Part shown: piece after piece, positions 1 to 4,592 of the stretch | How the letters are laid out: every line of letters starts with the position of its first letter | Numbering within the stretch: position 1 is the first letter of the stretch | IMG/VR virus record: IMGVR_UViG_3300030117_002316 | Span: 1-48,108 of that record | Length of the DNA: 48,108 bases | Origin: a virus | Direction: 5' to 3' (one strand) | Notes under the pieces: generated by a model | Told to the model about the DNA's origin: nothing | The model's database searches: none | The model's input: the letters and a program-made list of their open reading frames with translations, nothing else | Position numbers and translations under genes: made by a program

Positions 1-1
1 G

Positions 2-1159
2 AGAGGTATCATCTGTGGGGATACTAGTTGGCCGATCTCCTCTGCTCAGCTTGAGCAGTGGGGCAGTGATCTTGGTGAAGATCTCGGTCTTGATGACCAC
101 GGTATGGAACGACTGACACAAGGCAAGAACCCTATCAGGTTCCTTGAGAGTGGTGGTGATTGGCTTCTCTTCTGTGAGGCCAAGAAGTACCTTCAAGCAA
201 AGAGGACGGGACGCACCGATGCGTTCTGTTACATCGATGCTGCTGCGTCAGGTATTACCCTGAAGGAGCTGTCTACCGGCTTCCCCAACGCAGTTCTCAA
301 TGCTGACAGTCGTCATCCAGATTGGAATCACCCTTATGCTCGCTACTCCGCTGATCTCTTGGCACGCCATGAGATCAAGCAGGCTATCCGTGGGTATGCT
401 GGTATTCCACTCCCGGTTCTCATCGAACAGGTTCGACAAGCGATGAAGCCGGGTATTGTCGCTGGTGGCTACGGAGCCAGCGGTAACAGGATGGCGATGA
501 GTGTACTCGGAAACCCTGTCGATGACGAGTGTCCTGCTACCCCTGAAGAAGTGACTCTGGCTTTGCCTGAGCCATTCAATCGGTGGGTTCCGAAGGATCC
601 TAAGAAAGACTGGGTGGAACAGTTCAGGAAAGACTTCAGAAAGCCCTTCAAGGCTTCGATGAATAAAGTCTTCCCAGCAGATACGAAGCTGAGTAACCAT
701 CTCCAGAAATTCTGGACTGGTCATGTTGGCAAGGACTACCTGTCCGACCCACCTGCATGGGTGATTGATGGTTTCGTGCATCAACCCAAGAGGATTCGTC
801 GTAACCGTGATGAGCATACTGCTCTTCACTACCCCTGTCCCATCACTGGGAAGACTACGACGATCCAACGGAACGTGCTCGAGATTAACCGGGGAACAGA
901 ACTGCTCCCCAACCTTACCCACGCTATGGATGCGTTGATCATGCAGATCTGCGTACTCCTGATGAAGATGGAAGGCATTCCTGTGATTGCCATTCATGAC
1001 TCCGTGGGCGTTCCTTACCCATTCCTGAGGCGAGCTAACCAGCTCTACGTCGAGGCCGTCAACTATGTGATGTCCTTGAACGTCTGGGCTCAGTTCGGAT
1101 TCAAGGGCTACGGCCCTATCCCAGTGCTCGATCCTGACACTGGCCTCCTGCGTCGTTGA
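2..1159 (+). CDS. Single-subunit (T7-type) RNA polymerase 1, C-terminal part; 5' end outside window
   Basis: The reading frame is open from base 2, so the gene enters from the left; the ATG at 104 is internal. Numbering from that Met, the catalytic landmarks of T7 RNA polymerase are visible: D45 in DAAASG (T7 D537), R111 and K115 followed by Y123-G124 eight residues later (T7 R627, K631, Y639, G640), and H298-D299 in AIHDSVG (T7 H811, D812). The spacing from R111 to G124 equals that of T7. The protein ends in a basic LLRR instead of the aromatic FAFA-like foot of T7, and the stretch between the first Asp and the Lys is shorter. It is clearly different from the second polymerase at 8269-10713. 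GC content is visibly higher than in most of the window. A strong terminator follows the stop. Family assignment is firm; its role (early enzyme, alternative promoter specificity, or other) is unknown. Confidence 0.87.
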   Translation, partial: RGIICGDTSWPISSAQLEQWGSDLGEDLGLDDHGMERLTQGKNPIRFLESGGDWLLFCEAKKYLQAKRTGRTDAFCYIDAAASGITLKELSTGFPNAVLNADSRHPDWNHPYARYSADLLARHEIKQAIRGYAGIPLPVLIEQVRQAMKPGIVAGGYGASGNRMAMSVLGNPVDDECPATPEEVTLALPEPFNRWVPKDPKKDWVEQFRKDFRKPFKASMNKVFPADTKLSNHLQKFWTGHVGKDYLSDPPAWVIDGFVHQPKRIRRNRDEHTALHYPCPITGKTTTIQRNVLEINRGTELLPNLTHAMDALIMQICVLLMKMEGIPVIAIHDSVGVPYPFLRRANQLYVEAVNYVMSLNVWAQFGFKGYGPIPVLDPDTGLLRR

Positions 1160-2602: not shown

Positions 2603-2628
2603 ACCCGTCTGCTCTTTTCCAAGCCCCT

Positions 2629-2719
2629 GAACAGAGGGTGCTACCCCGGTCCCTTATGTAGGACGGGGACACCCCTGTTCGTACTGGGCACACGCATGGT
2701 GTGTGCCTAGTACGAACAG
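2629..2719 (+). promoter_or_regulatory. Competing long hairpins downstream of the 79-aa gene
   Basis: CTGTTC at 2675-2680 can pair with GAACAG at 2629-2634, closing a stem that also joins GGGTG with CACCC and encloses CCCC/GGGG. It can instead pair with GAACAG at 2714-2719, closing an 18-20 bp almost perfect hairpin (2676-2718, one G-T pair in the first 18 bp). The two folds exclude each other. No T run follows. This could be a terminator or attenuator, an RNase III site, or the 5' part of the structured RNA that follows. Confidence 0.5.
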
Positions 2720-2753
2720 ACACTGATGGCTCTAGATTGAGCAATCAAAACTT

Positions 2754-3290
2754 CCGTAGTTGAGCGGCTCTCACTGAGAGTAGGAAAATGCTCTGGGATC
2801 TACGGCATAGACTGACAAATCCCGGGCAGTTAAAGATCTGCCTAAGCAAACTTGGTGGTAGATTGAAACCACCCACCCCCGTGAGCTTCGTTGATGTAGC
2901 TTCATGTCGTAGCGGGATCAGGTGAAGTAGACATGAGATAAGCATCGACCGTGAGTATGTCTGGGAGACGCAGGTGCAAGTCCTGACTGCGATGTATAGC
3001 AGTCCTGTCGGATCCAACGGGCCTGTCCCTGACTGGGGCAGTAGTAGAAGAATAGTATCTACACCCAGACCTCTACTCCACCTGATTGTCCCTACTGAGG
3101 TATCAGGGCTACGCATTCGTCTACGTGTGGATCGCTTCCACCAATGCGTAGTTGTGACTGAATATACCTTGGACTACTAGGGGGTAAAGGTGTTGTGAAG
3201 CAACGTGAGCACCCAGCTAGGGCGGAACAATGCGGATCAGCTGTCAGACGGCAGGTTGAAACCAACTTACTAGCAGGCATAGCCTGTCGT
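2754..3290 (+). ncRNA. Candidate large structured non-coding RNA
   Basis: About 540 bases contain no open frame with a ribosome site but many well-formed stems: CCGTAG/CTACGG (2754/2800), CTCTC/GAGAG (2768/2776), GGCAG/CTGCC (2825/2838), GGTGGT/ACCACC (2854/2868), GACTGC/GCAGTC (2985/2999), GTAGA/TCTAC (3044/3058), CCTGAT/ATCAGG (3081/3102), CTACGCATT/AATGCGTAG (3109/3143) enclosing GTGGA/TCCAC (3127/3137), and a bulged GGTGTTG/CAA..CACC element (3189-3213). A TTGAAACCA word occurs twice (about 2863 and 3255), as a loop or docking motif might. Base composition is balanced, unlike AT-rich intergenic DNA. Size and phage location recall ornate large RNAs such as GOLLD or ROOL, but I cannot assign a family. 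The ends are approximate and the strand is assumed from the neighbours. Confidence 0.55.
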
Positions 3291-3363
3291 TATGGCATGT
3301 AGGAATAGTTTGCCTACCAACCTTGGCTCTGGTATCTCAGTAGTTACACTCAGGAGAACTAAA

Positions 3364-3537
3364 ATGACAGAAGATATGACAATGTACTATGAATTCCTTG
3401 ACAACCTCAGGGAAAGCGGGTATACTAACATGTTCGGAGCTGGTCCCTACCTCATGGACAACTTCGGAATCACCAAGTATGAGGCCAACCGCATCCTGAC
3501 ATCATGGATGCAGACCTATGGAGAACGTCATGGGTAA
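3364..3537 (+). CDS. Small phage protein with NMFGAGPYL motif, 58 aa
   Basis: The start is the ATG at 3364, preceded by AGGAG at 3352-3356. The upstream extension to 3292 runs into the structured RNA region and is not used. The protein carries LRESGYTNMFGAGPYL near residues 15-30, then a helix and a C-terminal SWMQTYG. From memory this pattern recurs in small proteins of unrelated phages, where an amphipathic helical protein of 50-70 aa with LR.SG..NMFGA..YL is common and uncharacterised. It is the first gene of the small-gene cluster. Confidence 0.7.
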   Translation: MTEDMTMYYEFLDNLRESGYTNMFGAGPYLMDNFGITKYEANRILTSWMQTYGERHG

Positions 3538-4239: not shown

Positions 4240-4292
4240 GAGGCGGTAAGGATAGCCAAGAGTAGAAATCATCCCAACTTATGGAGAATCAA

Positions 4293-4592
4293 ATGCTACA
4301 AGAGTTCTACAAGAACAACCCCAACCCAAATCTTTTGGGTAAAGTTACGGATCCACCCTTGACAGACCTGCAAAAATCTGTTAATGTATACGAACCTATC
4401 GAGGCGTATACAGAAAAGTGGACACACAAAGAGAACAGGAAGACTGGAGAATTCCTTGGTGCTGAACCTGTACCGGGGACACGTAAACGAAATGATTTGC
4501 CACCGCTTTACATCCAATGGAAAGAGGACTGGAAAACTCGATTGGATGCTATGAACAGACGCGGTGGTCCTAATGAGAAACAAGGACAATAA
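4293..4592 (+). CDS. Unrecognised 99-aa protein
   Basis: The ATG at 4293 has GGAG at 4283-4286; an in-frame ATG at 4281 overlaps that site and is less likely. The protein is hydrophilic, rich in Lys, Asn and Pro, with aromatic residues but no recognised motif or membrane segment. It opens a new run of coupled genes after a 90-base gap. The last 20 bases overlap the next small gene. Confidence 0.6.
   Translation: MLQEFYKNNPNPNLLGKVTDPPLTDLQKSVNVYEPIEAYTEKWTHKENRKTGEFLGAEPVPGTRKRNDLPPLYIQWKEDWKTRLDAMNRRGGPNEKQGQ

Follow-up and report, generated by a model that had tools for sequence, protein, structure and literature searches.

The analysed window, 48,108 nt long, covers the initial 48 kb of an IMG/VR record of 65 kb (IMGVR_UViG_3300030117_002316). 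Its gene set identifies it as a T7-like podovirus: it encodes a T7-type RNA polymerase, a primase-helicase, a family A DNA polymerase and a class II ribonucleotide reductase, as well as a head-tail connector, which we used to collect relatives of the phage, and a T7-type terminase. There is also a second RNA polymerase gene of the T7 type; it is divergent (phrog_414, E 6.8e-6) and spans the record ends (window 1–1159 and L198 4276–5013), just upstream of the region described here. Both ends of this gene give the same peptide on translation, so the record appears to represent a whole genome that is circularly permuted and whose ends overlap briefly. At the gathering level, the only Rfam families in the window are three tRNAs at about 13 kb.

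Between two small ORFs near the start of the window lies an RNA island of about 760 nt (Table 1). At the matching place, sister phages carry islands of varying make-up. The initial annotation had described 2754–3290 as gene-free and stem-rich, and this description was borne out. Its statement that the stretch lacks a translatable frame comes close to the truth: two frames exist, of 68 aa (+ strand) and 123 aa (− strand), but their lengths are those expected by chance, the longer being reached by 7% of shuffled sequences. We ruled out coding frames in the island, since none of them has a PHROG match and the 123-aa frame is disrupted by a 5-nt deletion in the sister phage G023. A blastn search of the region against named phages returned no match.

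Table 1. Features of the RNA island and its borders (window coordinates)
Feature	Position	Strand	Evidence or remark
79-aa ORF, upstream border	2363–2602		
Gene-free RNA island	2603–3363	+	ORF list; no frame inside with a PHROG match
Block E1, two strong hairpins	2629–2719	+	z −7.6; 83% conserved in G023
5′ segment, small hairpins only	2720–2950	+	z −0.8; 40 of 200 shuffles fold equally well
Middle module, closed RNA with five hairpins, 131 nt	2951–3081	+	near-identity in G023
3′ module, divergent manA-type RNA, full extent, 252 nt	3092–3343	+	manA match, reciprocal matches, covariation
Outer helix P0, 5′ strand	3092–3106	+	partner 3329–3343; paired in 97.5% of cells, two-sided changes in 3 pairs
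P1, perfect 9-bp helix (3109–3117/3143–3151) and inner hairpin	3109–3151	+	3 pairs changed on both sides
Conserved core, GTTGTGACTGAATA – hairpin – TAAAGGTG	3151–3192	+	invariant in relatives; aligned to canonical manA in both directions
16-bp helix, 3242–3257 with 3281–3297	3242–3297	+	paired in 100% of cells, two-sided changes in 4 pairs
3′ hairpin (3299–3303/3313–3317), then CAAC (3318–3321)	3299–3321	+	two-sided changes in 3 of 5 hairpin pairs
Outer helix P0, 3′ strand	3329–3343	+	partner 3092–3106
57-aa ORF, downstream border, own ribosome-binding site, directly downstream of 3′ module	3364–3537	+	kept in G023 without the manA module there

The + strand of the region folds better than shuffled sequences, with z-scores of −3.6 for 2720–3360 and −3.0 for 2754–3290. 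In this respect the proposal of a structured region of about 540 bases holds, but the stability excess is not spread across all of it. When domains were scored separately (200 dinucleotide shuffles each), z-scores were −7.6 for 2625–2718, −0.8 for 2740–2946, −1.8 for 2947–3081 and −3.6 for 3092–3343, the antisense of the last giving −1.7. The excess of 2754–3290 stems from 3092–3343, with the middle being modest, and the strongest folding outlier, 2625–2718, lies outside that interval. The 3′ limit at 3290 is also misplaced, as it omits the last 53 bases of a real domain that closes at 3343. The word TTGAAACCA, whose repetition (2863 and 3256) had been singled out, is repeated at the level that chance predicts, shuffles containing 0.49 repeated 9-mers on average. 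It is absent as a conserved word in the relatives, and we dropped it as a functional element.

The 3′ module (3092–3343) is a real structured non-coding RNA. The same module, 82–88% identical, is present in G005, at two places in G025 and in contigs G048–G050. A pattern search with the core recovered six viral contigs, and three additional matches in genome_contigs were rejected as homologues. Covariation among homologues, for which the initial annotation had asked as a check, was indeed found: in an alignment (A2) with 61 named pairs, 96.7% standard, 15 pairs have changed on both sides (0 of 500 shuffles), and in controls with slid partners the number of such pairs falls to 0–3. As A2 consists of five distinct but mutually related rows, this evidence is strong, yet below R-scape grade. 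The outer helix P0 (15–16 bp) is an addition in the divergent clade; CTACTGAG/CTCAGTAG in the window is replaced by CCAAGGGA/TCCCTTGG in relatives with pairing retained. The perfect 9-bp helix closing a nested hairpin, already noticed in the initial annotation, is real and belongs to P1, in which pairing is conserved and sequence is variable.

What kind of RNA is this? In a permissive Rfam search (671 bases, all families), manA (RF01745) was the only full-length significant match, with 21.3 bits and E 0.0029; when RF01745 alone was run against the window's own genome, the E-value was 6.8e-5. The match is co-linear over the entire model (positions 1–192 of 192 at 3133–3327), although its score lies below the Rfam gathering cut-off for the family (55.2 bits), and nothing else in the island reaches gathering level either. 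Scores are lower in the relatives, with 14.8 bits in G005 and none in G025. The likeness was also examined in the opposite direction, using a model (R1) built from the divergent rows only, with no manA sequence, and run unfiltered on nine 3-kb canonical manA loci. The best R1 scores fell exactly on manA: 24.6 bits (E 6.7e-6), 22.0 (E 3.7e-5), 12.9, 11.3 and 9.2. Two more manA copies, at 8.3 and 6.8 bits, were near background. The five copies ranking after the first two have R1 E-values of 0.015–0.9, and the named copies L153 and L156 were not separated from background.

The correspondence extends to structure and genomic position. Both RNAs have the 5′ hairpin P1, the 3′ hairpin with the closing strand after it, and the same order of elements, and the segment most clearly common to them is the core (GTGrCTGAATA – hairpin – AAGG in manA). 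As in manA, CAAC (3318–3321) pairs with GTTG (3151–3154); the pairing is present in all rows, with one consistent one-sided change. Moreover, canonical manA scoring above the cut-off is present in five sister phages, and in two of them (L097 and L099) it lies 0.4 kb upstream of a homologue of window ORF 4281–4592. In G005 and G025/G050, this ORF likewise comes after the divergent module. The differences concern the extra P0, which the Rfam model lacks, the loop of the 3′ hairpin, the lack of a visible dedicated sigma-70 promoter and the interior: the closing helix and 3′ hairpin of the Rfam model are kept, but its middle, made up of several hairpins, is replaced by the single 16-bp helix with four covarying pairs.

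These differences invite the suggestion that the module is unrelated to manA and that a short core has converged. Indeed, clear matches are limited to GTGACTGAATA – hairpin – AAGG together with the 3′ hairpin and closing helix, and the remainder of the manA alignment requires large insertions and deletions. We nevertheless find convergence very improbable: the reciprocal model matches rank first, in the right places and in register, the order of helices is identical, and canonical manA occupies the corresponding place in sister phages. We treat the 3′ module as a remote, divergent sister of manA and, because the gathering cut-off was tested and missed, do not count it as a member by the Rfam rule. 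The family itself is well established as structured: in the ZWD alignment, 48 of its pairs are significant (PMC7779021). The open-access literature that we searched mentions neither the outer helix nor an occurrence of manA in T7-like phages.

The remaining parts of the island differ in their support. In block E1, hairpins 2629–2680 and 2675–2719 compete for the strand CTGTTC (2675–2680), and GAACAG/CTGTTC/GAACAG of the window has become AAACAG/CTGTTT/AAACAG in G023, the three segments having changed together. Islands of other relatives also begin with comparable double-hairpin blocks. For the 5′ segment that follows, 2720–2950, no homologue was found, including by a pattern search of viral contigs, and there is no support for it as a conserved RNA.

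The middle module is an undescribed multi-hairpin RNA, separate from the manA-type module. It is closed by GTCTGGG (2959–2965) and CCCAGAC (3064–3070), plus an outer extension, and its predicted structure is derived from two sequences, those of the window and G023. The two are identical at 128 of 130 aligned bases (98.5%), while two neighbouring genes are 90.2% and 89.3% identical and the G023 connector 88%; in this comparison the module is more conserved than the neighbouring genes. The lone stem substitution turns an A-U pair into G-U with pairing kept, and a 5-nt deletion falls within a hairpin loop. No further copies were found in the records searched, in which a pattern for the module recovered one viral contig. 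A 17-base pattern, CAGGTGCAAGTCCTGAC, matched mostly coding DNA or tRNAs, G023 being the sole homologue. By eye, the module resembles YrlA, a bacterial Y RNA (RF02553), in having T-arm-like, acceptor-like and D-arm-like (GG loop) hairpins in the same order, the T-arm likeness being that of its first hairpin (CAGG-TGCAAGT-CCTG, 2971–2985). However, it has two extra hairpins, and the YrlA covariance model gave no match in 2700–3370 even at E ≤ 10.

Could all these parts belong to one large RNA? The initial annotation had pointed to a known ornate class, GOLLD or ROOL, or a new one. The island shares with these classes its phage origin, large size and gene-free, stem-rich character, and its variable 5′ and conserved 3′ parts are reminiscent of GOLLD, described as having a conserved 3′ region and a less conserved 5′ region and as located near tRNA islands (PMC12286853). 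The G048 and G049 islands also have long 5′ parts. A single RNA of this kind, extending over the whole island and having a 3′ domain that is conserved and a 5′ domain that varies, is nonetheless scarcely credible. In the Rfam covariance-model search, neither GOLLD nor ROOL matched even at E ≤ 10, the 5′ part folds no better than shuffles, and 10 kb separate the island from the tRNA genes of the window. Each module has its own closing helix and occurs without the other: G023 has the middle module without the manA-type module, and the reverse is true of three related phage lineages, G005, G025/G050 and G049 (the G048 contig is truncated inside the 3′ module). Instead of one RNA of 600–800 nt or more, the window has two modules of 131 and 252 nt. 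The island thus consists of separable modules, and the choice between a known class and a new one is answered differently for each part: the 3′ module is a likely divergent manA sister, the middle module is undescribed and the 5′ part is unsupported.

As to function, canonical manA in named phages is informative. It is present over the cut-off in 9 of 21 named T4-like cyanophages. Eight of the nine copies (L153, L154, L155 and L186–L190) begin 5–10 nt past a sigma-70 promoter of the form TTGACA-16/17-TATAAT, matching 11–12 of 12 consensus positions. The ninth, in S-CREM1, sits between tRNA-Leu and tRNA-Asn at spacings of 1 and 0 nt, and the S-SSM7 copy abuts tRNA-Gly; the spacing to tRNAs in these two copies is 0–1 nt. 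Flanking genes vary (regA, ferredoxin, pstS, gp23, NAD synthetase), and in P-TIM68 the gene after manA is on the opposite strand. A free-standing RNA gene fits these loci better than a riboswitch because of the RNAs' own promoters, their abutment on tRNAs, the unrelated neighbours and the opposite-strand gene. In particular, the sigma-70 promoters speak against a gene-specific riboswitch, and the loci together suggest that manA RNAs may be free-standing phage RNAs. These promoter observations belong to canonical manA of T4-like phages and bear on the window only via homology. Canonical podovirus manA loci match only 7–8 of 12 promoter positions. Upstream of the module in the window there is no promoter of the sigma-70 type; the only strong + strand match (3398–3426) is inside the 57-aa ORF. 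From this we infer that podovirus copies would be made from longer transcripts and trimmed.

The explanation that we favor, and consider probable, is that the island holds at least two independent self-closed RNAs that are cut from a long transcript and act as free RNAs, not as switches. Both modules would be copied within a long polycistronic transcript coming from upstream and then excised or trimmed at the helices that close them. The free RNAs would act during infection, most likely by binding the host RNA-handling or translation machinery; judging from their context, they would not be switches for the next gene. Several points weigh against this explanation: the interior helices differ from the Rfam model, the manA score is far under the cut-off, and the expression argument relies on T4-like phages. 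In addition, the module ends about 12–20 nt before a start codon in the window and in G049, as a 5′ UTR element would.

The last point agrees with the published view of manA as cis-regulatory and a probable riboswitch (PMC2864571), under which it has been listed since 2010 with no ligand. According to this view, the manA-type module would act in cis from the 5′ UTR of the next gene, possibly as a riboswitch; P0 ends 20 nt ahead of the start codon at 3364, and the spacing in G049 is similar. We regard this as rather unlikely. The downstream gene varies, being the 57-aa ORF in the window, an ORF starting MGMDVFG in G005 and one starting MDMRVLI in G049, while the G025b module is followed by a YrlA-like RNA. 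The 57-aa ORF holds its place in G023 without the module, its ribosome-binding site (3352–3356) is outside P0, and canonical manA can abut tRNAs or precede an opposite-strand gene. Across manA and manA-type loci there is no conserved type of downstream gene, as a riboswitch would need. The published placement in 5′ UTRs of mannose, nucleotide and photosynthesis genes does not apply to the window either, where the neighbors are uncharacterized small ORFs, none of them matching a PHROG.

Islands of the sister phages contain other elements. A closed multi-hairpin module of about 137 nt (L096 1354–1490, L097 1142–1278) is 94% identical between two phages and lies at differing distances from manA, which suggests that modules may be shuffled. 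Downstream of manA-type RNAs in sister phages there are YrlA-like RNAs (37–40 bits, below the cut-off), as in G025, and short tmRNA-like tRNA domains without the message part (41–51 bits); these pieces are located at L093 212–320 and 589–670, L084 ~2049–2110 and L095 1808–1889. G025 (L093, L084) has two slightly different manA-type copies at the two ends of its record, with different sequences after each. Because tRNA halves follow manA in sister islands, we considered whether a permuted tRNA or a permuted intron might surround the module. We rejected this: those halves match YrlA-like RNAs, and none occur in the window. A 73-nt non-coding element is repeated at 90% identity in L095 (1423–1495 and 2188–2259), one copy directly before manA and the other before tRNA-half-like sequence. 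Finally, in a T7-like phage, a Pistol self-cleaving ribozyme (L099 460–526) scores 66.1 bits, which exceeds the cut-off; a manA RNA follows about 1 kb downstream of it.

Taken together, the locus is a real structured RNA region. Its main part is a known RNA in a new, divergent form, and one undescribed module accompanies it. A broader idea, which we put forward tentatively, is that this T7-like phage lineage might maintain a fast-changing island of interchangeable self-closed RNA modules of about 130–250 nt (manA-type, middle module, L096/L097 module, YrlA-like and tmRNA-like pieces), which would move independently and act in trans on host machinery; manA would then be one of them and no riboswitch. 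The findings extend the manA family to podoviruses and add a second, strongly conserved unnamed RNA module; divergent manA copies lie in the RNA islands of T7-like phages. For manA itself, the evidence points to a free-standing phage RNA that may have a bound partner rather than a ligand.
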